Source: Cafeteria roenbergensis
Lineage: Eukaryota; Sar; Bigyra; Bicosoecida; Cafeteriaceae
Length of the DNA stretch: 64,000 bases
Reading direction: 5' to 3'
Assembly: GCA_008330645.1 (NCBI GenBank)
Contig: VLTN01000082.1
Location: 1-64,000, forward strand
Part shown: positions 1 to 18,170 of the stretch, piece by piece
Position numbering within the stretch: the first letter of the stretch is position 1
Layout of the letters: every line of letters starts with the position of its first letter
The notes under the pieces: generated by a model
What the model saw: only the letters and a program-made list of their open reading frames with translations
Told to the model about the DNA's origin: nothing
Database searches by the model: none
Program-made: the position numbers and the translations under genes

Positions 1-3000
1 GCCTGGGCAAGCTGGTGGGCAAGGTGGTGAACACCATCCTGGGGAAGCACGGACTGCTGGACCCAGCTGCGCTTCCAGTTCCTGGGCTGCGAGACGGTCC
101 GTGCAGGCTGGTCCATGCTGTCCGCACCGCGTTCGAGGAGGGAGAGATCAGAACGGTGGTGGTAGCGTTGGACATGGCCAACGCCTACAACTCTGTCTCC
201 AGGCGCGCGATGATCGAGGAGGTGCGGCGGTTGGACGAAGAAGCTCGTGCCGGCGGTGCTGGCGCTGTACGGCTCGTCCAGCCCGCTCCTCTTTGCCACG
301 GACGAGGGCGAGGTCTTTGAGCTGGAGTCCAACAGAGGCGTGCGTTCAAGGCGACCCGGCAGCGGGCGCACTGTTTGCGATCGCAGTGCACCCCCTGGTG
401 GACGAGGTGAGGCGCGCCTTCCCAGATGTGCTCATCTTGCAGATGGCCGACGACACGAACGCTGTGGGCCCGAGGAAGAGCGCCTTCAGGCAGCCCAGAA
501 TGCTGGCTGAGCGGCTCAGCACGGTGGGGCTGCGCGCACGATGAACACCAGCAAGACCCAGGTGCTGTGCAAGCGAGGACAGCTCGAGAGAACACAAAGC
601 CAGAATTCGGCGGGAGATGAAGCGGAGTAGGGACGATCCAGGGTCCCCACCCTCGGTGCTGGAGGGGTGCCACCTCACCGAACGGAGCGTGGCGGTGCTG
701 CCAGTGTCCTGTGGGGGAGGAACTCCGCCGGAGGTGGCACTTGAGCACTCGATGAAGCGACTGGAGAAGGAGTTTTGGGCCGGCGGCGGAGCGCCTGCTC
801 GCGGGCATCGAGGTCTGCGGGCTCAAGCGGGCGCACCACCTGCTGCTGTCGGTGGTGGGCCAGAAGTTCAGCTACCTGCACAGAGCAGCGGGTGCGGCGG
901 CGGGCCAGGAGCTGGCGGTGTTCCATGCGGCGCTGCTGGCCAACCTGTCGGCGGTGGCGCACAAGACGGAGCTGGATGCGATCGGCCACGCGCTCTCGGA
1001 CGAGATGTGCACGGTGACCCGAGGACGGCTTCCGTGAGGCGATGTCCAAGGCCATCGAGGCGCTTGTTCGGGGGGCTGCCGGACGAGCACGCAAGGCGGG
1101 AGGCGTGGTGGGCGCTCCTGGGCCGGGAAGCCGACGGTGTGACTCGGCTAGCATCGGCAGCGTCCAACCCGGCCTTGAAGAAGGGAGGCTACGCTCAGAT
1201 GAAGCCTGGCGAAGATGCTGAGCAAAGGGCTGCAAAGCCGGTGGCATGGGCCTGCCTGGCGTGGCGCAGTTCCGCTTCGAGGCGACAGCGGGCTTCATCG
1301 AGGCCGTTCGGGACATGCGGAAAGGGCGGTTCGAGATGGCACCACCGCCGGAGGAGGCCCTCGACGGGGCCCGACACTGGTGGAGGCGGAGGCGAAGCGC
1401 GGCGTCGGGGAGTGGTGCCGGAGCGGGACCAGCCAACGCCGGCGAGGCGGAAGCGGAGGATGAGTCAGGTGCGGCGGCTGCTGCAGCGGGCGGCACGCCG
1501 TGGGTGGACCACCCGGCGGTCGGAGAGAGCGAGTCCAAGGAGGACTGCGAGGAGGGGCCGGCGCACGGGCAGCAGCTTGCAGGTACGCTGGACGGCTGGC
1601 TCGTCAGCGGTACGGGGGAGCGGCTGAACCGGAGCATCAGCCAACACCGACAAGCGGAGGCCAGACGGGCGGTGGAGGTGCGGCTGCCGCCAGCGCGGCG
1701 GGAGCGGCGACCGAGATGACGACGAGCGGCGGCGGCGCAGCGGCAGCTAGTGCGGCTGGCGCTCCAACCGGCCAAGAGACATCTGATGCCGCACAGCCGA
1801 GAGCGGATGCGGCACAGGTCTACTCGGTCAGGCGAACGCCGGCGATCGGGTTGGCCAGGGACGGACCCGACGCGGACGCGGACGGCAACGACCCCAACTG
1901 GAAGGGCATCTCGCTCAAGAAACTCGTGAGGAGCTCGCTGAAGCGCTCAGACCGCAGCGATGCGACCAAGGAGGTGGGCGACATCCTGCTGCGATGCGAG
2001 GAGGTCGCCAAGGGAGCCTACCGGGACTACGAGCGGGACAGCAAGGAGTACAAGGACGCCTGCACCGAGGCACGGTACTTCAGGCCGGACAAGGACTGCG
2101 TCGTGGGCAAGGAGGCCGACCTTCATGCCGCCAGGGTGAAGAAGCGCTACCAGCTGGCGCACGTGTGGAGGTCGGACATCGCGGGGGCTGTCGAGGGCCT
2201 GGAAGAGCTGCGCGCCGAGATCGAGGAGCTGGCGCTGGAGGCGATGATGGAGCTCAGATCTGACGACGAGTCGTCGGATGACATGGAGGCAGCGGCAAAC
2301 CTGGTGGAGGAGTTCATCAGGGCCTGCAAGGGAGCCCGCTGCCTGGCCGCAGCGACAGGGTTCGAGGGCTTCTTGCCCGACACCTTGGGCGTGCTGTCGG
2401 ATGACCTGAAGGCCAAGCTCCGCAAGTGCCTGTACGGCGACGGGGTGACGGCGCGGGCGAACGAGCAGACCGAGGCGCCCTGGCAGCGCAAGATGGTGCT
2501 GCATCACGACGACATGCTGCGCATCAAGCACGAGTGTGTCTTCCTGCGCCGTCTGGCCAAGGCGCGCAGGGCCTGCACAGCACGCTGCAGGGCCGAGGCG
2601 CTGGCCAAGGGCACGCCGGAGAAGCGTGTCGCCAACATCGACGACCCGGCCATGCTGCGTGTCATGAGCGACCTGGTCGCGTTCCGAGAGGCGTGCGTGC
2701 CGGGAACGCACTACTGGCTCCGCAACACGATGATGGGGACCCCGCGGGCTCACAGACGAGGAGTTCGCGGTGGTGGAACGCTACCGCATCGGAGCCTCCG
2801 AGGCCGACCACGTGGTGCCAGACGGCGTGTCGATCAACTGCGCGTGCGTGCAGCGGGACACCACCGCGAGAGGCACCGTCCACATCGGCGGGGTCTCGGG
2901 CGTGGCACATCACCTGGCACGCTGCCGCTGCGGCAAGGGCTCCACCATCCGGGCGCACAACGACGTCCGCGACGTCCTGCACGCGGCGGTGCGCTCGGCG

Positions 3001-3690
3001 GGACTACAGTCGGTGGTGGAGCCTTCCAGCTGGCAGGACGGGCAGACGCGCTTCGGGTCCCAGCCGGGGTCCAGCGAGGCCGCGCGCAAGCGACCGGACC
3101 TGCGGGTGCACGTCGACTTCGAGACCACCTGTCTCGTCGACGTGCAGATCACCTCGGCGGTAAGCAAGTCCTACGTGACGCAGGGCCTGCAGAACATGGA
3201 CGCCTTTCTCGAGCGCCGTGAGAATGACAAGATGAGGGAGTACAAGAAGAGCTCAGCTACAAAGGACAACTTGAGCTCCATTGTGCCCTTCGTCATCACG
3301 ACCACGGGACGCATGGGACCGGCGGCCTTCGCCTTCCTCAAGAAGGTGGCGGACACGGCCTTTGGTGACCGGCCGAGGGAGCGTGCGCGCTGGGCCTTTC
3401 GCTGGCTGTCGAGGCTGAACGAGGTCATCGCCAAGGGACTGGCGACCCAGCTGATCGGGCAGACGCAGTACCTGCGACAGCAGGTGGAGCGTATGCGGTG
3501 AGCAGGGGCGGCTGATTGGTGACTCGTGGCAGTGTGATGGGAGTGATCTGGGACTTGAGACTTGGGATTGTGGGTTTGGCGCGGTTTGTGACTCATCGGT
3601 GATGGAGTTGCTGGATTGGTGATTGGTGAGTCTGTGAATCGAGTGTGTGGCATGGTTACGCGAGTTTTCGACCCCCCCCAACGATGTTCA
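1..3690 (+). mobile_element. Non-LTR retrotransposon (LINE) with restriction-like endonuclease, copy A, cut by window edge
   Basis: This is the longest copy of the local LINE. Reverse-transcriptase pieces lie at its left end: a motif A-like stretch ALDMANAYNSVSR (about 168-210), then in another frame a motif B-like QGDP and a catalytic MADD (about 340-460), corresponding to the usual YADD. A long alpha-helical linker follows (about 1800-2740). The C-terminal part has a CxC...H knuckle (CRCGKGSTIRAH, about 2926-2960) and a PD-(D/E)xK-like endonuclease core with RPDL and, about 15 residues on, LVDVQIT (about 3090-3160), as in R2/NeSL-type elements. The frame ends at 3501, and a roughly 180-bp 3' UTR runs into a C-run and AACGATGTTCA. 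The coding frame is interrupted several times, so the copy is dead. Its 5' end lies outside the window. Confidence 0.85.
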
Positions 3691-3710
3691 CAAGCCCCCA
3701 ACGATGTTCA

Positions 3711-5391
3711 CCGCGTGTTAACCGGGAGTATGAGCGGCACCGCGAGGATTACAAGGACGCCTGTGCCGAGGCATGGTACTTCAGGCCGGACAAGGACTGC
3801 GTCATGGGCAAGGAGGCCGACCTTCATGCCGCCAGGGTGAAGAAGCGCTACCAGCTGGCGCACGTGTGGAGGTCGGACATCGCGGGGGCTGTCGAGGGCC
3901 TGGAAGAGCTGCGCGCCGAGATCGAGGAGCTGGCGCTGGAGGCGATGATGGAGCTCAGATCTGACGACGAGTCGTCGGATGACATGGAGGCAGCGGCAAA
4001 CCTGGTGGAGGAGTTCATCAGGGCCTGCAAGGGAGCCCGCTGCCTGGCCGCAGCGACAGGGTTCGAGGGCTTCTTGCCCGACACCCTGGGTAAGCTGCCG
4101 GGCGAGCTGAAGGCCAAGCTCCGCAAGTGCCTGTACGGCGACGGGGTGACGGCGCGGGCGAACGAGCAGACCGAGGCGCCCTGGCAGCGCAAGATGGTGC
4201 TGCATCACGACGACATGCTGCGCATCAAGCACGAGTGCGTCTTCCTGCGCCGGCTGGCCAAGGCGCGCAGGGCCTGCACAGCACGCTGCAGGGCCGAGGC
4301 GCTGGCCAAGGACACGCCGGAGAAGCGTGTCGCCAACATCGACGACCCGGCCATGCTGCGCGTCATGAGCGACCTGGTCGCGTTCCGAGAGGCGTGCGTG
4401 CCGGGAACGCACTACTGGCTCCGCAACACGATGATGGGGCCCCGCGGGCTCACAGACGAGGAGTTCGCGGTGGTGGAACGCTACCGCATCGGAGCCTCCG
4501 AGGCCGACCACGTGGTGCCAGACGGCGTGTCGATCAACTGCGCGTGCGTGCAGCGGGACACCACCGCGAGAGGCACCGTCCACATCGGCGGGGTCTCCGG
4601 CGTGGCACACCACCTGGCACGCTGCCGCTGCGGCAAGGGCTCCACCATCCGGGCGCACAACGACGTCCGCGACGTCCTGCACGCGGCGGTGCGCTCGGCG
4701 GGACTACAGTCGGTGGTGGAGCCCTCCAGCTGGCAGGACGGGCAGACGCGCTTCGGGTCCCAGCCGGGGTCCAGCGAGGCCGCGCGCAAGCGACCGGACC
4801 TGCGGGTGCACGTCGACTTCGAGACCACCTGTCTCGTCGACGTGCAGATCACCTCGGCGGTGAGCAAGTCCTACGTGACGCAGGGCCCTGCAGAACATGG
4901 ACGCCTTTCTCGAGCGCCGTGAGAATGACAAGATGAGGGAGTACAAGAAGAGCTCAGCTACAAAGGACAACATGAGCTCCATTGTGCCCTTCGTCATCAC
5001 GACCACGGGACGCATGGGACCGGCGGCCTTCGCCTTCCTCAAGAAGGTGGCGGACACGGCCTTTGGTGACCGGCCGAGGGAGCGTGCGCGCTGGGCCTTT
5101 CGCTGGCTGTCGAGGCTGAACGAGGTCATCGCCAAGGGACTGGCGACCCAGCTGATCGGGCAGACGCAGTACCTGCGACAGCAGGTGGAGCGTATGCGGT
5201 GAGCAGGGGCGGCTGAGTGGCGACTCGTGGCAGTGTGATGGGAGTGATCTGGGACTTGAGACTTGGGATTGTGGGTTTGGCGCGGTTTGTGACTCATCGG
5301 TGATGGAGTTGCTGGATTGGTGATTGCTGAGTCTGTGAATCGAGTGTGTGGCATGGTTACGCGAGTTTTCGACCCCCCCCAACGATGTTCA
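3711..5391 (+). mobile_element. LINE copy B, 5'-truncated
   Basis: The copy matches copy A from about 2020 onward, covering linker, zinc knuckle, endonuclease and 3' UTR, and is almost identical over about 1.65 kb. It starts 20 bp after the end of copy A; those 20 bp repeat the terminal CCCCCAACGATGTTCA. The first 40 bp or so differ more from copy A than the rest, which suggests a slightly different source copy. Most of the coding region is open (3645-4870), with one frame break late in the endonuclease part. The 3' end is again a C-run plus AACGATGTTCA. Confidence 0.85.
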
Positions 5392-5740
5392 TCCTCAAGA
5401 AGGTGGCGGACACGGCCTTTGGTGACCGGCCGAGGGAGCGTGCGCGCTGGGCCTTTCGCTGGCTGTCGAGGCTGAACGAGGTCATCGCCAAGGGACTGGC
5501 GACCCAGCTGATCGGGCAGACGCAGTACCTGCGGCAGCAGGTGGAGCGCATGCGGTGAGCAGGGGCGGCTGAGTGGCGACTCGAGGCAGCGTGGTGGCAG
5601 GGATCTGGGACTTGAGACTTGGGATTGCGGGTTTGGCGCGGTTTGTGATTCATCGGTGATGGAGTGGCTGGATTGGTGTTTGATGAGTCTGTGAATCGAG
5701 TGTGTGGTATGGTGACGCGAGTTTTTGACCCCCCCCCCAA
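5392..5740 (+). mobile_element. LINE copy C, short 3' fragment
   Basis: Only the last 55 or so codons of the LINE frame and the 3' UTR remain. The fragment starts exactly after AACGATGTTCA of copy B. Its 3' UTR carries variants (GAGTGGCTGG, GGTGTTTGATGAG, TGGTATGG) that are shared with copy E and absent from A and B, placing C and E in one sublineage. It ends in a run of about ten C. Confidence 0.8.
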
Positions 5741-5988
5741 CGACGAAGACCTAATCCCTAAGCCTACTCATATTCGAGTGGAGCGTATGCGGTGGGCAGG
5801 GGCGGCTGTGAAGCGACTCGAGGCAGTGTGATGGCTGGGATCTGGGACTTGAGACTTGGGATTGTGGGTTTGGCGCGGTTTGTGATTCAACGGTTATGGA
5901 GTTGCTGGATTGGTGATTGGTGAGTCTGTGAATTGAGTGTGTGGCATGGTTACGCGAGTTCTTGACCCCCCCCAACGATGTTCATTCA
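5741..5988 (+). mobile_element. LINE copy D, 3' UTR tail behind a 37-bp spacer
   Basis: A unique spacer of about 37 bp (5741-5777, ending ACTCATATTCGA) leads into the last few codons and 3' UTR of the LINE (from GTGGAGCGTATGCGGT, about 5779). The same spacer and tail recur at 6537-6786, so C plus D behaves as one composite unit. It ends with a C-run, AACGATGTTCA and TTCA. Confidence 0.8.
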
Positions 5989-6536
5989 ACCGACGTGCAG
6001 ATCACCTCGGCGGTGAGCATGTCCTACGTGACGCAGGGCCTGCAGAGCATGGACGCCTTTCTCGAGCGCCGTGAGAATGACAAGATGGGGGAGTACAAGA
6101 AGAGCTCAGCTACAAAGGACAACATGAGCTCCATTGTGCCCTTCGTCATCACGACCACGGGACGCATGGGACCGGCGGCCTTCGCCTTCCTCAAGAAGGT
6201 GGCGGACACGGCCTTCGGCGACCGGCCGAGGGAGCGTGCGCGCTGGGCCTTCCGCTGGCTGTCGAGGCTGAACGAGGTCATCGCCAAGGGACTGGCGACC
6301 CAGCTGATCGGGCAGACGCAGTACCTGCGGCAGCAGGTGGAGCGCATGCGGTGAGCAGGGGCGGCTGAGTGGCGACTCGAGGCAGCGTGATGGCAGGGAT
6401 CTGGGACTTGAGACTTGGGATTGCGGGTTTGGCGCGATTTGTGATTCATCGGTGATGGAGTGGCTGGATTGGTGTTTGATGAGTCTGTGAATCGAGTGTG
6501 TGGTATGGTTACGCGAGTTTTTGACCCCCCCCCCAA
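5989..6536 (+). mobile_element. LINE copy E, 5'-truncated 3' fragment
   Basis: The fragment begins within the endonuclease coding region, at the sequence coding VQITSAVS, about 200 bp further 5' than copy C. It contains an open reading frame to the standard stop at 6354 and the full 3' UTR. Its 3' UTR variants match copy C. The C-run at its end is followed by the same 37-bp spacer as after copy C. Confidence 0.8.
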
Positions 6537-6786
6537 CGACGAAGACCTAATCCCTAAGCCTACTCATATTCGAGTGGAGCGTATGCGGTGGGCAGGGGCG
6601 GCTGTGTAGCGACTCGAGGCAGTGTGATGGCTGGGATCTGGGACTTGAGACTTGGGATTGTGGGTTTGGCGCGGTTTGTGATTCAACGGTTATGGAGTTG
6701 CTGGATTGGTGATTGGTGAGTCTGTGAATCGAGTGTGTGGCATGGTCACGCGAGGTTTCGACCCCCCCCCAACGATGTTTATTCAC
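6537..6786 (+). mobile_element. LINE copy F, 3' UTR tail behind the 37-bp spacer
   Basis: This is a near-exact repeat of copy D with its spacer. It ends with a C-run and AACGATGTTTATTCA, about 12 bp from the stop codon of the NTPase-nuclease gene that reads towards it. This is the left-hand boundary between LINE array and host gene. Confidence 0.8.
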
Positions 6787-6798
6787 ACCAGTCACATT

Positions 6799-9700
6799 TT
6801 AAGCTTCAGCCTGGTCCGCGGCCCCGTCTGCCTCTGCGACTGTGTGTCCGCCCCATGCTTGCCGCTTCACCATTCTGGCCCAGTCAAGGACAGCAGGCGG
6901 CAGTCCACTGAGTAGGTGATCGCCACAAGCGACAACCCAGTGCGGGCCGTGGATTCTTCCGCAGGATGACGTTGCTGCTCCGTCCACCCCGCCGAACATT
7001 GCCATTCTAAGAGCACCCTCGTGAATGCCGATTTCAGCTGGCACCGTAACATGCAGTGCATTTTCGGTGACGTCCTTGTTCGTGACCACCACGTTCCAAA
7101 CCACGAGGGACTCGCCGTCTCTCAGGAGAGAGAGCGACACGGGGTGGAAGTCACCCCAACTCTTTACCTGAGCTGTGAATCCCGGGACGATCTTATTCCA
7201 GCCAGTGAGGGATACGTTGGTTGATTTGTCTGCAGCTGCTGCTCCGGACGATGTTGCTTTGGCTTGAAGCAGCAAAAGGTGGACGAGCCGGGAGTCGAGG
7301 TCCCGCACCAAAAGCACGATGTCCACACCCTTGTCCGGAGACGGCTTGAACAGCATTCCCGTTCGAAGCACCGAAGAGTTTGCCCGCACATCGTCCCACT
7401 TGAGATCGGCAACCTTCGCAACGGCGGCGTCATCAACCAGCGACAGCCGCTCAAGGCTCCTCAGCAGGCTCTTTCGTTGACCCTCAGTTGCCGCTCCAAC
7501 AAAGTGGGCAGACTTGGCAGCGCTTTTGCAAAAGGCCTGAGCTAGAACAGGCTCGGTGGTCGTGGCACCAACTGTGGCATGGCTGAGGTCATCGCGCGCC
7601 TTGAACGGCAGGGAACAACCGCCCTCGTCGATGAGCATGATTGAAAGAACGGCGGTCCATGAGACGGGTCGCCACTCGCCAGCAACAACTGTCAGCACGC
7701 CACAGTCGGAGAGGTTGCTCAGCGAGGGCAGCAGCGCCTCTGCCGCAACATCGGCACCGCTCGCCTCCGATGCCCTTGCCGACAATTTGCCAAGGTCAAG
7801 ACCCAGGGCTGACAGGGGCACTGACGGCGACACAAGTTGGTCCAGCACCGTTTCCGAGCGCAAGCCCTTGATAACTGACTTGAAGTGGGCTGCAAAGACT
7901 GACGAAAGCTGCCGCCCATGCTGAGTAGCAATGATGTCACGTTGCATCTTGTCCAATCCCAACGGCGGCTTCTCGGAGTGGGCCCCGGGCTGGCCAAGGA
8001 GTGCGCGCAACACGCTCCCGGCGCGAAGTATTGAGCGGCCAAAGCGCGCTCGCCTCTTCGGGACGGCGCTTTTGGCGAGGAATCTTTTTGCAGCGGAATG
8101 GAAGCTCGAGACTGCACGCCCGGCCGCCATGATTGCCCTTGCATGGTCCTCGAGGGACGACAGGGGCTCAAGAGGCGAAAGCGGAATCTGCTTGTCGCTG
8201 TGGTTGGTCTTTTCGCGGAACTTCTCAACGTCGTAGATCCTCGGGTCCACACGGTCAGGGCTGAAGAGAATGTCGCGCATCCAGGCAGCGCTGCCGGAGA
8301 CGTAGTAGATCATCTGTGGCGAGTTGCCCCTCAGGGCGACGAGCTCATCGGCAATGATGTCGCCACACTTCTTGTAAGGCTCGTCTGCCTCGTCCATGAC
8401 CAGCAGCATGCTCAGCTTGTTGGCTTCAAGGAACTCGCACACTTGCTGCGGGGTCGCAAACCACGGATAACGCTTCCACTTGGAGGGGTCCGGGTCCGCC
8501 TCGACTCGCGGTCTGTGGCCTGCAAGCTGCAGTGCCCTGTCCAGCAGACGAGGAAGCGGCGCCGATGGTCTGAGCCACGCGTGCTCGCTGTCGGCGGCAC
8601 GAGCCGCACACAGCTCATAGAGCCACCTAGCTCGCAGCATGTCAACGTACACCGGGACCACTGGCCGGCCGGCGGCTGGAAGCGACTTGATCCTTGAGAA
8701 CACACCTGCAGCGACACAGCCCGCGACCAGAAGAGAAGACTTGCCGACTCCTCGGGGGCCAAAGACGCACCGGCCGTTGAGCTGCCCACCTTCGCCAGCA
8801 AGAGCGAGGGCTGCGATGTCGCAGGCAAGGCTCCTCGCCAAGAGGTCGCGGTTGCTTGGGCCCTCCCACAGCAGCCATCGAGGCTCCTTGACTGCCTGCG
8901 CGGTCAAGGACATCACCTGTGGATTCAGTCCAGCCGCCTCGAGCGCCGGCCCGACGCCATGCTCGCTGCGCATGGTGTCGTAGATGCGACCTGCAAAGGC
9001 TTTGCTGGCCTTGTCCAAGGCCAAGGCAGTCTCGCCTGCCTTGGCCTCGAGTTCAGCTGCCTTGTCCGGAGTGTACTTGTGCATCATAGCCCCGGCCTCG
9101 GAGAGGGAGTCTGAAGGAATCGTGGAAATGGCAGAGTCCACACGAGCCAGTGTCTCACGCATCTTGCTCCGAAGCGCCTCCTGCTCCTCGGCCTCGCGCT
9201 CGGCCCTTGCCAGCAGGACGTCGGCATGCTTCTGCGCTGCCTTAATGGTGGACCGCTTGGCCACCTCCTCAGCCAAACCGTCAGCGACACCCCGAAGATG
9301 TCCAAGACGGTGCCACTCGGCCAGCTGATCAATGCCGCCTGCCATTATTACTTTTACCTTGGCCCTGCGGAGCACGTCACGAATGTGGACTCCGCTTCCA
9401 AGCTTGATGCTCGCCGCACCAAGCTTGCCCAGGAGAGCGGTAAAGTTCTTTTCCTTGCCGGTCGACCTGAGCCCCTTGGCGCGGCGAAGCTTGTTGAAGA
9501 ACTGCAGCGCTTCCCGGGCAAGCTCAACCCGCGTGAAGACCTGTGCAGGCGGGGTCCGGCTGAATCTGAGCTCCGAGGACATCAGGGCACTCAAGTCTTC
9601 CCCAGCATCGTCCGGTGACAGTAGGGATGCGTCCCACTCTTCTGCAGCTTGCGGAGCTGGCTCTGCGCCAAGTCCAACCCTTGCTGCAGTTGCCACGGCA

Positions 9701-10299
9701 CTGCGGAGCAGAGCTGCTCCACTGGCAGCGGCGGCAGCAGCACTAGGGGAGGACTTTCCAGAGCGAGAACCAGAGCGAGAACCAGTGCCGTCAAGAGCCG
9801 AACAGCGATCGTCGGAGCCTGCACCACGAGGAACTGTCGCGGCTGAGGAAGCCGCCGCTGCCGCGGCACCAGAATGATCGACTGCAGCAGGCCCCCTAGC
9901 GGCGGCGTCGGCTGATTCTCCACGTCGACGACGCTCGGCTTGGCCAGCGCTAGCGCTGCGCCTCGTGGCCCTCTTGGCCTCCTTGTGCTTTTTGTCACCC
10001 TTGGGCGGCTTGCGCTCAGCGGTTCCATGTTCATCCGCAGCGGCGGCTTGACGCTGGCCCTCCTTCACAGCGGGATTGGCAGCAGAGGCACCGGCATCGC
10101 CAGTTTTCTCTCGGCGGGATCGCTTGCCAGTCCGGGCATCGCCGGCAACACTGGCCTCGTGCTCGCGCTCGCGCTTGGCGGCGCGCCGGCCACTTGGCTT
10201 CGCCTGCGAACAGAAACTCGAAGACGAAGACGAAGACGAAGACGAAGACGAAGACGAAGACGAGGACGAAGACGAAGATGATTGCGGACGGTCTGCCAT
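6799..10299 (-). CDS. Crinkler/RHS-type P-loop NTPase with C-terminal nuclease-like domain
   Basis: An open frame of 1166 residues, with the start taken at the ATG at 10299. Seen: an N-terminal low-complexity region with about 22 serines and basic nuclear-localisation-like clusters (KREREHE, GKRSRREK); a helical middle part; Walker A GPRGVGKSSLL near residue 512; Walker B LLVMDEADE near 630; a sensor-like YYVSGSAAW soon after; and at the C-terminus a PD-(D/E)xK-like pair, VDIVLLV near 990 and LLLLQAK near 1011. Known: this NTPase plus restriction-endonuclease-fold layout defines the CR class, which includes trypanosome retrotransposon-hot-spot (RHS) proteins and Crinklers. Inferred: a nuclear protein of that class. 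Both flanks of the gene are LINE 3' ends. Codon use is less GC-extreme than in the 15-64 kb genes. The frame looks whole. Confidence 0.7.
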   Translation of the reverse strand: MADRPQSSSSSSSSSSSSSSSSSSSSSSFCSQAKPSGRRAAKREREHEASVAGDARTGKRSRREKTGDAGASAANPAVKEGQRQAAAADEHGTAERKPPKGDKKHKEAKRATRRSASAGQAERRRRGESADAAARGPAAVDHSGAAAAAASSAATVPRGAGSDDRCSALDGTGSRSGSRSGKSSPSAAAAAASGAALLRSAVATAARVGLGAEPAPQAAEEWDASLLSPDDAGEDLSALMSSELRFSRTPPAQVFTRVELAREALQFFNKLRRAKGLRSTGKEKNFTALLGKLGAASIKLGSGVHIRDVLRRAKVKVIMAGGIDQLAEWHRLGHLRGVADGLAEEVAKRSTIKAAQKHADVLLARAEREAEEQEALRSKMRETLARVDSAISTIPSDSLSEAGAMMHKYTPDKAAELEAKAGETALALDKASKAFAGRIYDTMRSEHGVGPALEAAGLNPQVMSLTAQAVKEPRWLLWEGPSNRDLLARSLACDIAALALAGEGGQLNGRCVFGPRGVGKSSLLVAGCVAAGVFSRIKSLPAAGRPVVPVYVDMLRARWLYELCAARAADSEHAWLRPSAPLPRLLDRALQLAGHRPRVEADPDPSKWKRYPWFATPQQVCEFLEANKLSMLLVMDEADEPYKKCGDIIADELVALRGNSPQMIYYVSGSAAWMRDILFSPDRVDPRIYDVEKFREKTNHSDKQIPLSPLEPLSSLEDHARAIMAAGRAVSSFHSAAKRFLAKSAVPKRRARFGRSILRAGSVLRALLGQPGAHSEKPPLGLDKMQRDIIATQHGRQLSSVFAAHFKSVIKGLRSETVLDQLVSPSVPLSALGLDLGKLSARASEASGADVAAEALLPSLSNLSDCGVLTVVAGEWRPVSWTAVLSIMLIDEGGCSLPFKARDDLSHATVGATTTEPVLAQAFCKSAAKSAHFVGAATEGQRKSLLRSLERLSLVDDAAVAKVADLKWDDVRANSSVLRTGMLFKPSPDKGVDIVLLVRDLDSRLVHLLLLQAKATSSGAAAADKSTNVSLTGWNKIVPGFTAQVKSWGDFHPVSLSLLRDGESLVVWNVVVTNKDVTENALHVTVPAEIGIHEGALRMAMFGGVDGAATSSCGRIHGPHWVVACGDHLLSGLPPAVLDWARMVKRQAWGGHTVAEADGAADQAEA
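10220..10278. repeat. GAAGAC microsatellite encoding the serine run
   Basis: About nine copies of GAAGAC with one GAGGAC variant, read on the minus strand as TCG/TCT serine codons in the N-terminus of the NTPase-nuclease protein. Slippage would change only serine number. Confidence 0.9.
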
Positions 10300-10938
10300 G
10301 GTCGTGGGAGGGGCCACTGGCCGCGGGCGCTGCGCACTGCGGCGGCGGGGCGGCGGCGAGACGGGATCGATTTTCCGTGATGCCAACTGGCCTCGAAAAA
10401 CAACGGCGCGCGAGCACGCTGCAGCCGTCCCTCAGCGTCAGCCCCGCCCAGCACAATGGCCGGCAACGTGCACGCTGCGATCATGCCATGAAGGCACTGC
10501 GAGGGCGGGTGCCAGCGCTGCGTCGGCCAGCGCGGCAGCGAGAGCGACCTGGAACACGGACCGGCCGCCTCCGCCGCAGCTCACGATCCACGGGGCCGAG
10601 CAGCACCAGCCTCAAGACGGGCGCAGCAAGCTCGGGAAGAAGGAGCGGGGAACAGTGTGAGGCAGCGGGCGGCCGCGTTGCAGCTCGCTCTGGCGCGCAA
10701 GAGTGCGGTCTCCTTTGGCAGCCACGAAAATCGGCAGAGCCCGCGACCGCGCAGCAGCGCTCTCGCGCCAGCGGCAGTTGCAGGGTGCCACACCAAGGCG
10801 CGCTTAGGCCGCCACACGCAGGCAAGGGACCGATGATTGTTGCACGGCGTGGGTGCGGCGCCACAAAAACATGTCCCGGGGCACAGGGCTCGGCCCTCCC
10901 ACGGGCGCGGCGCTGAACGATCCTAGGCTGCAGGGTCA
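10300..10938. other. Gap between NTPase-nuclease start and LINE copy G
   Basis: No convincing gene is seen; reading frames here are arginine- and cysteine-rich and look like shadows. It presumably holds the promoter and 5' UTR of the minus-strand gene, unless its 5' part was displaced by the LINE. Confidence 0.4.
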
Positions 10939-11780
10939 GCACACCACCGCGAGAGGCACCGTCCACATCGGCGGGGTCTCGGGCGTGGCACACCACCTGG
11001 CGCGCTGCCGTTGCGGCAAGGGCTCCACCATCCGGGCGCACAACGACGTCCGCGACGTCCTGCACGCGGCGGTGCGCTCGGCGGGGCTGCAGTCGGTTGT
11101 GGAGCCCTCCAGCTGGCAGGACGGGCAGGCGCGCTTCGGGTCCCAGCCGGGGTCCAGCGAGGCCGCGCGCAAGCGACCGGACCTGCGGGTGCACGTCGAC
11201 TTCGAGACCACCTGTCTCGTCGACGTGCAGATCACCTCGGCGGTGAGCAAGTCCCACGTGACGCAGGGCCTGCAGAACATGGACGCCTTTCTCGAGCGCC
11301 GTGAGAAGGAGAAGATGGGGGAGTACAAGAAGAGCTCAGCTACAAAGGACAACTTGAGCTCCATTGTGCCCTTCGTCGTCACGACCACGGGACGCATGGG
11401 ACCGGCGGCCTTCGCCTTCCTCAAGAAGGTGGCGGACACGGCCTTCGGCGACCGGCCGAGGGAGCGTGCGCGCTGGGCCTTCCGCTGGCTGTCGAGGCTG
11501 AACGAGGTCATCGCCAAGGGACTGGCGACCCAGCTGATCGGGCAGACGCAGTACCTGCGACAGCAGGTGGAGCGCATGCGGTGAGCAGGGGCGGCTGAGT
11601 GGCGACTCGTTGCAGCGTGATGGCAGGGATCTGGGCTTGGGACTTGGGATTGCGGGTTTCGCGCGGTTTGTGATTCATCGGTGATGAAATTGCTGGATTG
11701 GTGTTTGATGAGTCTGTGAATCGAGTGTGTGGCATGGTTACGAGAGTTTTTGACCCCCCCCAACGATGTTCATTCATTCA
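10939..11780 (+). mobile_element. LINE copy G, 5'-truncated
   Basis: This copy corresponds to copy A from about 2855 to its end: zinc knuckle, endonuclease core (RPDL ... LVDVQIT) and 3' UTR. The frame is open from 10853 to the usual stop at 11584, and the first part of that frame is flanking sequence. It ends GACCCCCCCCAACGATGTTCA followed by ATTCATTCATCA, suggesting a short microsatellite-like tail. It lies on the far side of the NTPase-nuclease gene from copies A to F and in the same orientation. Confidence 0.85.
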
Positions 11781-12537: not shown

Positions 12538-14200
12538 ATGGCGGATCCGGCAGGTGAGGTATGCAGCGGTGCCCGGGGAGTGCTGGCACGGGAGGCGGCA
12601 GACTGCCTTGCCGTTTGGGCTTGCGTTGCCGTCTCCGCCCGCGTGCGTCGTCGGCGCTCGCGCATGCCCGCCATGAGTCCGGGGCCTGCCGCGACTCGAT
12701 GAGGTTGAGGTGCTCACGGCAGGGGGCAGGGGGCGGCAAGCAAGCTTGGCTGCCTCGCGTTGGTTTGATGGCGCAGGACTCGGGCGCGAAAAGCTCGAGG
12801 CCGCGCGGCGCGGCGATGCTGTGCGGCTCAGAGCCCTAATTGCTGAGGCGGGTGACCTTGAGGACGTTTGTGACGAGCGGGGGCGGACGCCTCTATACAT
12901 GGCATGCCAGAACGGCCACGATGCGGTGGTGCGGCTGCTTGTGGAGGCTGGGGCGGATGTCGACAAGGCCAGGACGGACATCGGCGCGACGCCTCTCTGC
13001 ATCGCATGCCAGAAGGGCCACGATGCGGTGGTGCGGCTGCTTGTGGAGGCTGGGGCGGATGCGAACAAGGCCACGCCGAGTGACTGCGCGACGCCTCTCT
13101 GCATCGCATGCCAGAAGGGCCACGACGCGGTGGTGCGGCTGCTTGTGGAGGCTGGGGCGGATGCGAACAAGGCCACGCCGAGTGACTGCGCGACGCCTCT
13201 CTGCATCGCATGCCAGAAGGGCCACGACGCGGTGGTGCGGCTGCTTGTGGAGGCTGGGGCGGATGTGAACAAGGCCAGGATGATCGACGGCGCGACGCCT
13301 CTTCTCATCGCATGCGTGAACGGCCACGATATGGTGGTGCGGCACCTTGTAGAGGCTGGGGCGGATGTGAACAAGGCCAAGACCACCACCGGCGCGACGC
13401 CTCTTCTCATCGCATGCGTGAACGGCCACGATATGGTGGTGCGGCACCTTGTAGAGGCTGGGGCGGATGTGAGCAAGGCCAAGACCACCACCGGCGCGAC
13501 GCCTCTCTTCATGGCATGCCAGCACGGCCACGATATGGTGGTGCGGCTGCTTGTGGAGGCTGGAGCGGATGTGAACAAGGCCAGGACGGACACCGGCGGG
13601 ACGCCTCTGGTCATCGCATGCCAGAACGGCCACGACGCGGTGGTGCGGCTGCTTGTGGAGGCTGGGGCGGATGTGAACAAGGCCAGGATGATCGACGGCG
13701 CGACGCCTCTCCTCATCGCGTGCCAGGAGGGCCATGAGGCAGTGGTGCGACTGCTTGTGGAGGCTGGGGCGGATGTGAACAAGGCCACGACGGACGACGG
13801 CGAGACGCCGCTCGTGGCTGCATGCCGCAGGCCAGACACCCGACTCGTGCGCCGCCTGCTTGCCGCCGGCGCCGACCCGAATATCTCAGACAGGCAGGGT
13901 AAGTCACCTCTTGAAGTGGCGGCGTTCCAGTGTCGCAGCGCCGCGGCAGTTCGGCTGCTGCGGGAAGCTGGTGCGCCCGCGCCGTCGTCTGGCGCCTCCG
14001 CCTCGGCAGGCCTCGCGATACTGCAGCTCACTGGCCACACAGACGTCATTGAGGCGCTTATGACGCCAACGCTATGGGAGCGGCGGTGTCGGCTCCTGGC
14101 CTGGCGGACGAGTGTCCAAAGGTGCAGTCATTTCGGTGCATGTGTTGTCTCCGCTGCGGCTCATGAGAGGGTGTCGTCCGGCGAGTGCACCGTGGCGTGA
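12538..14200 (+). CDS. Ankyrin-repeat protein
   Basis: Proposed as two exons, 12538-12553 (MADPA plus one base; donor GCAG|GTGAGG) and 12777-14200 (acceptor GCGCAG), giving 479 residues. The phases fit, and exon 2 has no suitable ATG before its first repeat. The product is almost entirely about 12 ankyrin repeats with consensus TPLxIACQNGHDxVVRLL then VEAGADVNKA, most of them 34 residues rather than 33. The last two repeats (from ETPLVAAC) are more diverged and form the cap. Ankyrin stacks bind other proteins; nothing shows the partner. There is no membrane segment or catalytic domain, though the last 40 or so residues are non-repeat. It neighbours the LINE/NTPase block and reads towards a glycosyltransferase gene. 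Confidence 0.8.
12885..13800 (+). repeat. Tandem 102-bp ankyrin-coding units
   Basis: Nine 102-bp units in a row, several almost identical at DNA level. The units beginning near 12987, 13089 and 13191 share nearly all bases, and those near 13293 and 13395 differ at only a few positions, including a Ser for Asn change. This points to recent unequal exchange or conversion within the gene. Confidence 0.85.
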
Positions 14201-15160: not shown

Positions 15161-17536
15161 CTAGCCTGCTGAAAAGTACTGCGGCCGGTTCTTCCACTTC
15201 GAACGGAAGAGCTTGCCATTTTTGCGGAGCAGATCGTCGTAGTCGAGCTTGGCCTCGGAGTGAATGCGCGCCGTCGTCTTGTGCGCCTCGTGGAGAACGC
15301 CGCCAAACTCGCGATAGGCGATGAAGTAGCCTGCCTCGCGGAGTGCAAAGCTCAGGTCGGTGTCCTCAAAGCCCGCAGGGAAGAAGCGCTCGTCGAACCC
15401 GGGCGTGTCCATCAACGCCGAAAGCTTTGCCACCATGCCGCCCGAGCCGAGGTAGCCAACCGACACCCGGAAGCCCAGCTTGTCCGTTTCGGAGTTGGCG
15501 CCCCGCCGCGGGAGGCCGTACACAACTGTGTCGTAGGGCAGGTCCGGGTTGAACCAGCCAGCCGCCCACCCGATGGCCCCCAGTCGGGGGTTGGAGAGGT
15601 GGATGGCCTCTGTCTCGTACATCCAGGACGCCGACGTGATGAGCATGTCCGAGTCGAAGAAGGACACCAGGACGCGAGACGGCACGAACCCAGGCAAGTT
15701 GATCGCCGCCAGCCCTGCGTTGCGGCCGGCACTGCAGCCCGGGGAGTCGATCTGCACGACCGTGATGCCGAGTTCGGCTTTGAGGTCGGCGAGCACCTGG
15801 GGGGACTCGTCCGTGGAGGCTGTGTCGACGACGATGACCTGCATCGTGGTCTTGGTCGCGCCGTGCTTGAGCGCGCTGCGGACCATCCTGCCGATAAAGT
15901 CCCCGTTGTTGTGGCAGAGGATGATCACGACAAAGGCGTGCTGCAGCTTGTGGTCCTGCATCATCGCGTCGGCGACGCGCCCCCACGAGTACTGCTGGAG
16001 CGTGGTGGAAAGGTCGTCCGAGGACGGGGCGGGGAGCTCCGAGCACGCCAGCGACGCAAACTGGTGCGCGTCCTTGGCCTGGTGGATGAAGGGCAGCCCC
16101 TTGAGTTCCTCGCTGAACGTCGCCACGACGGGAAGCCCCGCGAACCCGTACTCGAACACCTTGACGGGGGAGATGGTCTCCAGGAGCGGGCCGGGGGCGA
16201 ACGGAAGCAAGCCCACAGTGGCAGCCTGCACGTAGGCCGTCAGCTCCGAGTGCTGCTTGAGGCCGATGAGGTGGACGTTTCGGAAGTCCTTGTTCATGTC
16301 CTTCACCTGCTGGGACGCGTCGCCGATGATCACGAACTCCGTGTCCGGACACACCTTGGCCGCCTCGTGGATGAAGTCCCAGCGAAGCCACGAGCCGTAG
16401 AGCGACCCGAAGTAGAGCGCCACGCGGCTGGCGCCTGGCGGCCAGTCCCCCGGCAAGGCCAACTCGGCCTCGCGAAACGCGGCGGGGCGAAACTCGAGCT
16501 CGTTGGCAGCGTTGGGGAGGTACTCGACCTGCCCCGCAAAGTACGCCTGCGCCTGGCGCTGCAGTGCCAGCGCCGTCGCCACAACGCGGTCGGCAGAGTT
16601 GAGGATGCGCACCAGGTCTGCCTTGTTGAACCAGTCGCCCCCGAGGGCCTTGTCGAACCAGTCGTCCAGAATCTCGACGACGACCTGGGTCTTGTGGCGG
16701 CGCGCGGCTTCCACGACGGGAATCACGTCCCTGTGCGGCACCTCGATGATGACGCGCGCGCCGCGAGACAGGGACGGCACCAGGTTCGTTGCGACCGCCG
16801 GCGAAAGCTGCATTTGCTGCACTGCCAACCCGCTCACCCCGGTCACGAATGTCGTGCCCTGGTTCTCGAACGACGCTGAGGGAAAGATGTACACGAAATG
16901 GACGGTGCAGAAGCGATGCGCGAACGCCCTCGCGAGCTGTGCCGACCGCTGCCCACCGCCTGCGTCGCCCAATGGAATGCCCGACACAATGAGGAACTCG
17001 CAGCCGGGCAGCTGCTGCGTAGGAAGGGGCTGGGGCGGCGGCGGGGCGCTTGCCCGGAGCTGGCGATCAACGCCCTTGCCCAGACTCGCTTTCCAGTCAG
17101 CGACGGCCTGCTGCGAGTCTTCGTGGGAAAGCGGCTGCTCGTGGACGGGAGGCTCGAGCCGGCTGGGCTCGGAAGGGGGGGCGGGCGCGTGCACTGCGTC
17201 CCCTGGTCGGGAGGGTGGCTGCGAGGCCTCGGTCGGGGACGGCTTGCGGACGGGGTGGCCCATCGCGTCCTCCCGCGAGCCCATGTTGGGCAGCTTCGCG
17301 CTCCCGTCAGGGCTTCCTGCCCGTGCAGGGACCTTTGCAGCCGACGAGCGCGCAGCCTCGGAGGTCAGCAAGAACGCTGCGGCAAGGAGGCACAACGCAA
17401 GGACCGCCAAGGCCGTCGCCTGGCGCCGCCCAGAGCCGCAGAGGCCGCCGCGCGCCCCAACGCCCTGGCAGCCTCCGCCGCACGGCCCGTCCGAGGCGCG
17501 GTGAACCGGACGCGCTCGGCGACCCCGCGTGTGCAT
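15161..17536 (-). CDS. Bifunctional glycosyltransferase, GT4-like plus GT2-like, type II membrane protein
   Basis: 791 residues if started at the ATG at 17536; the frame is open further upstream, but that part is low-complexity and crosses a long poly-C tract on the opposite strand. One membrane anchor lies at about residues 40-57, followed by a Pro-rich stem, a Golgi type II layout. Residues from about 178 to 510 are a GT-B, GT4-like module: a glycine-rich nucleotide loop (GIPLGDAGGGQRS), PNAAN, and ISPVKVFEYGFAGLPVVA near its end. Residues from about 530 are a GT-A, GT2-like module: VIILCHNN, VVDTASTDES, and DxD in FFDSDML near 625. The fusion suggests sequential addition of two sugars to one glycan; donor and acceptor are unknown. 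The next gene upstream, exportin-4, reads the same way. Confidence 0.85.
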   Translation of the reverse strand: MHTRGRRARPVHRASDGPCGGGCQGVGARGGLCGSGRRQATALAVLALCLLAAAFLLTSEAARSSAAKVPARAGSPDGSAKLPNMGSREDAMGHPVRKPSPTEASQPPSRPGDAVHAPAPPSEPSRLEPPVHEQPLSHEDSQQAVADWKASLGKGVDRQLRASAPPPPQPLPTQQLPGCEFLIVSGIPLGDAGGGQRSAQLARAFAHRFCTVHFVYIFPSASFENQGTTFVTGVSGLAVQQMQLSPAVATNLVPSLSRGARVIIEVPHRDVIPVVEAARRHKTQVVVEILDDWFDKALGGDWFNKADLVRILNSADRVVATALALQRQAQAYFAGQVEYLPNAANELEFRPAAFREAELALPGDWPPGASRVALYFGSLYGSWLRWDFIHEAAKVCPDTEFVIIGDASQQVKDMNKDFRNVHLIGLKQHSELTAYVQAATVGLLPFAPGPLLETISPVKVFEYGFAGLPVVATFSEELKGLPFIHQAKDAHQFASLACSELPAPSSDDLSTTLQQYSWGRVADAMMQDHKLQHAFVVIILCHNNGDFIGRMVRSALKHGATKTTMQVIVVDTASTDESPQVLADLKAELGITVVQIDSPGCSAGRNAGLAAINLPGFVPSRVLVSFFDSDMLITSASWMYETEAIHLSNPRLGAIGWAAGWFNPDLPYDTVVYGLPRRGANSETDKLGFRVSVGYLGSGGMVAKLSALMDTPGFDERFFPAGFEDTDLSFALREAGYFIAYREFGGVLHEAHKTTARIHSEAKLDYDDLLRKNGKLFRSKWKNRPQYFSAG

Positions 17537-18170
17537 GCCTCGCGCCGCGGGGCAGCGTTGCGGCGCCCTGGTGGAGAGTGGGCCGCGGGGCGAAGAATCG
17601 CAAAGTCCGAAATGCTTTGCTTTTTTGCGTGTCGCGGCACCAGCAGAGCCCCCTCCCAACGCCGGCCAGCGCACGCAAGGAAACAAACAAGCCCCAGCGA
17701 CGGTGAGCCAGCTGCGGCTGCCGCCATTTCTTCCCCCCCCCCCCCCCCCCCCCCCACACCGCTGACCTGTTCCTGCAGGGGAGGGGGGTGGGCCCGGGGC
17801 GGCCGCAACGACCCGAGGGCAGTGAGCCCCCTCCCAACGCCAGCTCAAGGGGGGGGGGTTTCGCCGCGCACGGGGAGTGGTGCGCCAGACCCAGGCCAAT
17901 GAGTAGTGTCCCCTGCTTGTCCAGCCTTGGCTTCTCGGAGCCTTGGCGCACCGCCGCACACCAGTCAGGACCGCGCTTAGTTTCGGTGGAGGCTGGGCGG
18001 CGCGGCGCCTGCCGCACGCACTTGGCGCTTCAAGCGGGGGGAAGGCTGCGTCCAGCGGCGCACGCTGGTCGCCAGTGCTTTTCCCACTCCACGCCGAGCG
18101 GGCGTCTAGCGCCGCTCGGACACTCAACATGCGCTTGCAAGCTCAGGCGCGGGCCTGGTCCGGTCTTCGG
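17537..18170. other. Gap with 23-bp poly-C tract
   Basis: 5' region of the glycosyltransferase gene and 3' side of the exportin-4 gene. It has a run of about 23 C at 17733-17755, followed by CTGACCTGTTCCTGCAG, which read on the plus strand resembles a branch point, pyrimidine tract and acceptor; a GTGAGC lies upstream at 17703. No plus-strand exon pair supports it. Confidence 0.5.

Follow-up and report, generated by a model that had tools for sequence, protein, structure and literature searches.

The window, the whole 64,000-nucleotide stretch of Cafeteria roenbergensis DNA analysed here, begins at the end of contig C82 and contains a Crinkler/RHS-like (CR-type) gene on the reverse strand at 6799–10299. 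Translation from the first ATG, at 10299, bore out the 1166 residues given in an earlier note on this DNA; the open reading frame (6799–10386 in the ORF listing of the window) reaches 10386 with a TTG start, from which it counts 1195 residues. The distal side of the gene was occupied not by one LINE copy but by a head-to-tail array of six LINE pieces, all on the forward strand, which spans 1–6781 and reaches the contig end. Copy 1 (1–3691; 3' end CCCCCCCAACGATGTTCA) is cut by the contig end and retains part of the reverse transcriptase, with a weak RVT_1 match (E 0.0026) in 2–544 and, in the ORF listing, a C-terminal endonuclease-like ORF at 2770–3501; it served as the reference copy for LINE comparisons and for the numbering of LINE positions. 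Blastn placed the 5' truncation of copy 2 (3721–5391) at LINE position 2020, that of copy 3 (5392–5736) at 3335 and that of copy 5 (5991–6532) at 3138, while copy 4 (5778–5984) is a tail only, from LINE position 3484 onward. Two forward-strand stretches of telomere-like filler with CCTAATCCCTAAGCC were read from the sequence, at 5737–5777 and 6533–6573. Between the 3' end of the last piece, the tail of copy 6 (6574–6781), and the stop codon of the CR gene, the gap measures 17 bp, not 12 bp as the earlier note had it.

Upstream of the gene lies the conserved 5' flank that goes with header type A (10300–10940, reverse strand), which recurs at 97% identity at the left contig end of C1 and at 80–88% in C45, C46 and C135, as far as these were read. 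It is followed by a LINE 3' segment that closes the inner side of the cassette (10941–11772, forward strand; LINE 2858–3690). A LINE 3' end had been placed some 640 bp before the start codon; this site is an internal breakpoint, at which 10941 corresponds to LINE position 2858, and the 3' end of the fragment itself lies at about 11773. The description of the gene as boxed in by LINE copies was right in that the LINE does flank it on either side, but a picture of insertions around the gene is wrong.

The reverse-strand features of the protein comprise a header module (9220–9948, about residues 118–360, from a mosaic scan), a coiled-coil linker (9175–9234, from the paralog alignment and the mosaic scan) close to the point where header and body are swapped, Walker A GPRGVGKS (8737–8760, residues 514–521), the Walker B region SMLLVMDEADE (8380–8412, residues 630–640) and the PD-(D/E)xK-like motif PSPDKGVD...LLLQAK (7258–7344, residues 986–1014). 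The Walker A and B motifs and the PD-(D/E)xK-like pair proposed earlier were all found, as GPRGVGKS, LLVMDEADE and PD-x-GVD...LLLQ-x-K respectively. In an alignment of nine intact paralogs, including the window copy, GPRGVGK, DEADEPYK, PD.GVD and LLQ.K were all invariant; the final Walker A residue was S or T, and DEADE as well as P988, D989, G991, V992, D993, Q1012 and K1014 were conserved in 9/9. The P-loop NTPase motifs typical of CR proteins were present in all nine, with an AAA_16 match below the cut-off. The dN/dS of bodies was 0.29–0.63 in the 10 of 11 pairs that gave a finite value, the lowest of which has a saturated dS; headers gave 0.49–0.86 and the nuclease part 0.38–0.78. The gene probably encodes an NTPase-regulated nuclease and evolves under purifying selection of moderate strength.

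Crinkler-RHS (CR) proteins, which occur in oomycetes, fungi and trypanosomes, were reportedly described by Zhang et al. (2016). They are said to form a large family in which a P-loop NTPase is followed by a PD-(D/E)xK-like nuclease and a conserved, ubiquitin-like N-terminal header precedes diverse C-terminal bodies (in part PMC5289972). The proteins studied here resemble them in family size, in NTPase motifs followed by a PD-(D/E)xK-like motif and in varied C-terminal bodies behind a conserved header; they differ in that their genes ride in LINE-bordered cassettes and that Crinkler/RHSP models were absent from the Pfam matches listed. These comprised all three matches of the window protein (E up to 10), the best 25 of 42 families for the nine paralogs (E up to 10) and five matches of the C76 protein (E up to 1). 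A PDB profile search with the CR protein returned a single weak and irrelevant match, and single-sequence fold models were too poor to use (mean pLDDT 37 for the nuclease part and 40 for the NTPase part). Viral contigs yielded no relatives by the CR protein, the nine-member alignment or the reverse transcriptase piece; PADLOC gave no match for the window protein and weak matches only for other members, the best being LeoA (0.0019). The CR/RHS label given in the earlier note is based on the NTPase- and nuclease-like motifs and the modular layout; no family or structure search proved it. By analogy with the CR family, the protein may act in defence or in conflict between cells or elements.

The LINE reverse transcriptase matched RVT_1 at 7.5e-16. 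Its best PDB matches were 8gh6 (5e-07) and 8ibw, both labelled just 'Reverse transcriptase-like protein', which we take to be R2 proteins; the next matches, 9nl3, 9dou and 9nl2, are named R2. Judged by these similarities, the reverse transcriptase is R2-like. For the restriction-like endonuclease (REL), a consensus of C-C-H-C, RHD/N, E, R/KPD and D/E is given in a passage of PMC12857005. The pieces H-C, HN-x19-E, E-x24-RPD and RPD-x13-D were present in order in the LINE, with the strict consensus unmatched. An Rfam scan of the window gave nothing at the gathering score.

To place the LINE in the assembly, we scored the best 40 of 293 candidates, with some contig sizes interpolated. The 3' end pointed inward in all 46 resulting matches, on 29 contigs, and 45 of them fell in the terminal 20 kb of a contig. 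Among 60 contig ends sampled, one of them withheld, the LINE was found in the outer 1.2–1.5 kb of 19, with the 3' end inward in 18; the sole outward-pointing copy was an old one (87–89% identity), and at the other 41 ends the LINE was not seen in the stretch read. At no fewer than 24 of 54 distinct LINE 3' junctions, that is at least 24, another copy begins within 60 bases, and these 24 following copies start at LINE positions 247–3674, indicating 5' truncation. LINE-LINE junctions include fillers such as TCAACCCTAA, several of them with short CCTAA-like fillers, and a degenerate telomere tract was seen at the left end of C7. Searches of the assembly for three TTAGGG units and for a loose CCTAA triple gave 0 matches. 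C17 carries a probable TERT: a single open frame holds two Telomerase_RBD pieces, collinear although below cut-off, together with a GIPQGS motif. Head-to-tail, 5'-truncated, inward-pointing arrays at contig ends, which here stand in for chromosome ends without proven equivalence, are the layout of telomere-attached retrotransposons. We also considered a promoter in the 3'-UTR that would leave HeT-A-like short tags: tails of ~80–90 bp recur, but the truncation points spread widely, and this idea is therefore not claimed.

About 46 CR-type loci were found in the assembly, after a hand merge of 52 rows that included partial and overlapping pieces; 30 of them are no more than 20 kb away from a contig end, a zone that makes up 15.4% of the assembly. 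Among these 30, 26 are transcribed toward the end and four away from it. A LINE 3' end lies within 99 bp of the stop codon in 21/24 readable CR-type genes or remnants. The exceptions are C59 and C55b, where the distal LINE end is ~620 bp and ~691 bp off, and C34, with none within 1.5 kb; C55a, C128, C32, C29 and C12a were left out on this side because the stop was unreadable (at C29 the 501 bases that were read showed no LINE, and neither did ~360 bases past the broken frame of C55a). At the other border, the conserved upstream flank met the LINE at a set internal position in 18/24 readable starts, and this breakpoint is fixed per header type. Six of 19 header-B starts had no LINE segment in the sequence read, namely C112, C122, C108, C85 and C29 (2.6 kb) and C34 (0.5 kb). 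C25, tried as a header-A cassette, was rejected: its LINE starts at 2854, but the neighbour is not the CR flank. Because the gene/LINE arrangement recurs at many loci, it is far beyond chance, and the genome-wide association that the earlier note had proposed to count proved strong.

The same note had offered a targeted insertion site as an explanation, in which the LINE endonuclease would recognise a site just past the CR stop codon. The stop-side ends, all in a single orientation, are consistent with this, and so is the trypanosome precedent: RHS genes there form a subtelomeric family linked to the non-LTR elements ingi, RIME and L1Tc, serve as ingi/RIME targets and are often interrupted by L1Tc (as far as PMC6967402 describes them). 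In that system, however, elements insert into the gene (PMC6967402, in part), whereas the LINE lies outside the intact window ORF. The stop-to-LINE gaps are mostly common within a body type (17–21, 35, 75–92 and 80–99 bp; 1–31 bp for body D), which points to few independent events. Several copies are also recent duplicates (C76a/b, in tandem; C112/C122/C108; C1 and C4 with C82) and therefore not independent. The idea leaves unexplained the fixed internal LINE position and conserved flank at the other border, and 16 of the 29 LINE-bearing contigs among the LINE matches listed had no CR match by hand count. We consider targeted insertion highly improbable: the association is widespread, yet it fits cassettes carried by telomeric arrays better.

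Plain co-location, in which both families are subtelomeric and their adjacency is a by-product of subtelomere duplication, would account for the enrichment of CR genes and LINE near contig ends and for recent copies such as the C76 tandem and C1, which carries a copy of the window's flank and LINE. However, LINE-bordered CR genes also occur about 100–270 kb from any contig end (C20, C27, C46 and C11b), so that arrays exist inside contigs as well; C46, C20 and C11b, at about 108–270 kb, keep their LINE borders, and the borders recur at fixed LINE positions under different bodies. Co-location alone thus seems very unlikely. Equally doubtful is an action of the nuclease protein on the LINE or on chromosome ends, by which it would control or help retrotransposition. 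Physical linkage is the one point in its favour, the cassettes explain that linkage without such action, and no test run here points to the control link suggested earlier.

The cassettes also exchange parts. One header type was joined to at least three different bodies, with the switch falling in the coiled-coil linker. In a tree, cassette LINE segments interleave with ordinary LINE copies and form no clade of their own; their mean identity is 96.2%, versus 91.4% for the adjoining flanks, as expected if LINE parts are exchanged. Homology between C76a and C32, C62, C30 and C14 stops at the LINE 3' terminal base in 4/4 comparisons, and the sequence beyond differs; in C20 compared with C76a, the LINE segment itself ends 11 bases short. 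Body-A cassettes have a nearly identical distal junction (C53 has one extra TTCA) and LINE tails of about 29, 83, 130 and 206 bp. In C12, the break in the gene, near residues 922–944 as numbered in the window protein, coincides with a LINE 3' end. The three body-D cassettes, C76, C30 and C20, differ at both distal and inner borders, whereas recombination predicts shared distal sequence.

These features bear on a composite retroelement, in which transcription in the LINE direction would take in the antisense CR gene, its flank and the LINE 3' segment, and the LINE enzyme would use this transcript as a template for adding a non-autonomous unit, with the CR gene as cargo, to chromosome ends by reverse transcription. 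The stop of homology at the LINE terminus, the breakpoints fixed per header type, the varied body-A tails (as 5' truncation would leave), the C12 break and the body-D borders all speak for it. Recombination through the LINE, however, likewise leaves homology that runs as far as the LINE 3' terminus and no further. The interleaving of LINE segments and the greater age of the flanks also count against it, and the composite reading therefore needs repeated template switching. That CR genes are antisense cargo of LINE-tailed composite elements, with template switching in the linker making new header-body combinations, is a possibility to which we give limited weight. If true, it would match the rotifer Terminons with a system based on a LINE, in which retrotransposition would drive effector diversity.

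We favour, at a probability of roughly 0.6, the reading that telomeric LINE arrays carry CR genes as passenger cassettes, which spread mainly by end-to-end recombination. The window would then lie at a chromosome end with a telomere-attached LINE array as its cap; the LINE copies, head-to-tail with the 3' end toward the chromosome and often 5'-truncated as observed, would have been added at the end. In the order read along the loci, a cassette usually comprises, in the LINE direction, a LINE 3' end, a short gap, the antisense CR gene (stop first), the conserved flank and a LINE 3' segment from a fixed internal position. Because the LINE flanks most cassettes, they could be copied between chromosome ends and bodies placed behind other headers, presumably in most cases by gene conversion or break-induced replication running through LINE sequence and through the linker, a repetitive coiled coil. 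LINE retrotransposition may re-cap eroded ends. Counting against this reading are the 41 sampled ends at which the LINE was not seen in the stretch read, the two telomere patterns that matched nothing in the assembly, the LINE-bordered genes far inside contigs, the header-B starts and stop-side exceptions that lacked a close LINE border, the four end-near loci transcribed away from the end, the differing distal junctions of the body-D cassettes and the recent duplicates among the copies.

Among known systems, the bdelloid Terminons (Athena) are telomeric retroelements with accessory ORFs and 5' truncation, and host genes are caught between neighbouring elements; they are Penelope-like with a hammerhead motif, whereas the Cafeteria LINE has an R2-like reverse transcriptase (PMC6431247, in the part that treats them). 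GilM/GilT, MoTeR, FoTeR and Zepp share one-direction arrays at chromosome ends and 5' truncation, and MoTeR/FoTeR have a restriction-like endonuclease, the consensus of which the Cafeteria LINE matches only partly (relevant passages of PMC5537684, PMC12857005 and PMC7367193). The Cafeteria arrays differ in holding a gene family in cassettes. Drosophila HeT-A/TART/TAHRE likewise form one-direction head-to-tail non-LTR arrays at chromosome ends (outlined in PMC5537684). A HeT-A/TART-type telomere implies absence of telomerase, whereas Cafeteria has a probable telomerase gene. We know of no CR-type cargo in HeT-A/TART/TAHRE.

Cafeteria roenbergensis is a free-living marine flagellate, culturable and used as a virus-host model. 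To our knowledge, CR/RHS genes recurrently adjoin mobile elements with no agreed reason. Here the link takes a concrete form, that of cassettes bordered by a telomeric LINE, with exchangeable bodies behind a common header. The finding would extend the short list of lineages in which non-LTR retrotransposons attach to telomeres to a bicosoecid stramenopile. In Cafeteria it becomes testable by what route CR-type families grow in number and diversity, and whether chromosome ends built of retrotransposons carry them. Residence in such arrays may let these putative nuclease genes copy and shuffle between chromosomes.

To characterize the gene at 6799-10386 (minus strand) of the window, we searched its product, 1166 aa counted from the first ATG, against known families. 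Pfam returned sub-threshold matches only, including AAA_16. The motifs GPRGVGK, DEADEPYK and PD.GVD...LLQ.K were invariant across nine aligned intact paralogs, the window copy included, and CR (Crinkler/RHS-like) proteins have been described with the same layout (PMC5289972). No convincing match to a family model (Pfam; 25 of 42 families inspected for nine members) or a solved structure (PDB) was obtained, and single-sequence structure predictions were too poor for use. Judged from its sequence, the window gene is a likely, though unproven, member of the CR family.

A query with the N-terminal module (header) gave 52 matches from 54 candidates, which were merged into 46 CR-type loci. Thirty of these lay within 20 kb of a contig end, in zones making up 15.4% of the assembly, and 26 of the 30 were transcribed toward that end. 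The headers fell into types A and B. By eye, the N-terminus of a B header (sequence piece L098, 3666-7424) was Arg/Ala-rich and resembled an organelle-targeting presequence; the window protein has a Ser-rich start instead.

The headers and the C-terminal parts (bodies) did not always share one history. C11a and C59 (contig numbers; suffixes separate CR genes on one contig) had similar headers (aa identity of 67-90% in successive 60-column steps) and dissimilar bodies (26-64%), and C11a versus C45R showed the reverse. The switch point was the coiled-coil linker, alignment columns 360-420. The dS of C11a/C59 was 0.24 in the header versus 2.36 in the body, in agreement with the mosaic scan. Body D (C76) aligned to the family profile over the header only. 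For bodies, 10 of 11 pairs gave a finite dN/dS, which ranged from 0.29 to 0.63; for headers it was 0.49-0.86.

The window copy of the LINE could be extended with copies from other contig ends, which gave a reverse transcriptase (RVT_1, 7.5e-16). Its best solved-structure matches, 8gh6 (5e-07) and 8ibw, are both labelled just 'Reverse transcriptase-like protein'; we take them to be R2 proteins, and three more structure matches carry the name R2. The C-terminal ORF contained H-C, HN, E, RPD and D, ordered as in restriction-like endonucleases, and deviated from the strict consensus (PMC12857005). The 3' end reads CCCC...AACGATGTTCA. TTCA units often come after it, as do short CCTAA-like stretches in several copies.

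A DNA search for the LINE tail gave 46 matches, all with the 3' end inward and 45 no more than 20 kb from a contig end (lengths were interpolated for some contigs); since the best 40 of 293 candidates were scored, these are biased to window-like copies. The LINE matches fell on 29 contigs, 16 of which had no match in two CR searches. We also sampled 60 contig ends, 34 left (C4, C11, C12 and C14 missing from C1-C38) and 26 right, the latter picked in part because previous LINE or CR matches had given their length; one of the sampled ends was withheld. The outermost 1.2-1.5 kb contained LINE sequence at 19 ends, 18 of them inward-facing, and none at the other 41. Because assembler-broken internal arrays would show both orientations, the inward orientation fits true chromosome ends. 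The left end of C7 starts ACCCTAACCTAACCC; two patterns of longer telomere repeats had no match in the assembly. C17 probably carries a TERT gene: one open frame there holds a GIPQGS motif along with two collinear Telomerase_RBD matches that score under the cut-off.

On the stop-codon side, a LINE 3' end lay within 99 bp of the stop codon in 21 of 24 readable CR genes or gene remnants (C82, C135, C45R, C11a, C53, C46, C4, C45a, C11b, C62, C76a, C76b, C30, C20, C14, C112, C122, C108, C85, C27a and C27b). Just the last 25-30 or so bases were present at C53 and C85, and about 66 were recognisable at C112, C122, C108 and C135. The LINE 3' end was about 620 bp away at C59 and 691 bp away at C55b, and none was found within 1.5 kb at C34. 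At C12b, additional to the 24, a LINE 3' end sits on the break of a broken CR gene. C76 contains two identical 1252-aa CR genes in tandem, each flanked by LINE copies. CR genes with LINE borders also occurred deep inside C20 (~268500-275100), C27 (~227500-246100) and C46 (~187000-201000); these are possibly former chromosome ends or misjoins.

On the start side, a flank followed by a fixed LINE position (numbered on window copy 1) was found in 18 of 24 readable starts among the 46 loci, C45a being uninformative. Header A had a 0.64-kb flank and then LINE position 2855-2858 in 5/5 cases (C82, C1, C45R, C46 and C135; C1 holds the flank alone). Header B had a 1.1-1.2-kb flank and then position 2393 or 2411 in 13/19 (C76a, C76b, C62, C30, C14, C32, C20, C55b with 117 bp of LINE only, C12a assigned by spacing, C11a, C11b, C53 and C59); the segment was not seen at C112, C122, C108, C85, C29 (2.6 kb read) or C34 (0.5 kb read). 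In the C55 cassette (L100 ~1628-1744; L106-L108), the 117-bp inner LINE is followed by a stretch common to the C112/C122/C108 group. At the left end of C25 (L064), the LINE starts at 2854, as in header-A cassettes, but the adjoining sequence is not CR flank and is perhaps another cassette gene.

Homology of C76a to C32, C62, C30 and C14 spanned flank and LINE segment and ended at the LINE 3' terminal base in 4/4, with different sequence beyond; the C20 segment ended 11 bases before the terminus. Distal (stop-side) borders also differed among C76, C30 and C20 despite a common body type, and body-A cassettes had a nearly identical distal junction with LINE tails of varying length. Two models of cassette movement are compatible with the data. 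Exact LINE 3' borders, 5' tails of graded length and separate borders on both sides speak for the main rival explanation, a composite element whose cassettes would be retrotransposed as units. Simple retrotransposition of fixed units is opposed by a tree in which cassette LINE segments intermixed with ordinary copies, and by LINE segments more alike than flanks (96.2% versus 91.4%; 21 pairs from 7 cassettes, two near-identical). Both results favour exchange through LINE sequence.

The assembly comprises 36.3 Mb in 167 contigs, and the window (C82:1-64000) starts at a contig end; the published assembly of strain BVI (now C. burkhardae) has 170 contigs, 36,327,047 bp, an N50 of 460,467 and 70.1% GC (PMC6972860). 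Window GC was 62-76% in 4-kb steps. Some sampled contig ends had low GC (29-41%), in agreement with endogenous virophages reported for C. roenbergensis (PMC8547959). The window also contains an ankyrin-repeat ORF just inside the LINE array (12710-14200; 102-bp repeats, ten in-register copies of one family), two glycosyltransferase ORFs (15161-18130 and 47114-49456) and a 2454-aa WD40/EML-like ORF (28480-35844). A family search gave no chlorophyll a/b-binding match.

Telomere-attached non-LTR elements have been described in insects, fungi, Giardia, Chlorella and further organisms (PMC5537684, PMC12857005); Terminons contain accessory ORFs and capture genes of the host (PMC6431247), and RHS genes are intermingled with L1Tc in T. 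cruzi subtelomeres (PMC6967402). Among the matches listed from open-licence PMC literature (titles and abstract openings), none described LINE-CR cassettes or a telomeric LINE for Cafeteria. In the two Cafeteria genome papers (PMC6972860, PMC8547959), 'telomer' was absent from the main text as searched, and the whole PMC8547959 record contains it twice. Such exchange through element sequence, by break-induced replication, has been reported for some Magnaporthe MoTeR arrays (PMC7367193). For the spread of the Cafeteria cassettes, we favour recombination via LINE sequence plus LINE capping of ends: cassettes would be exchanged through LINE sequence, as by break-induced replication, and the LINE would cap the chromosome ends.
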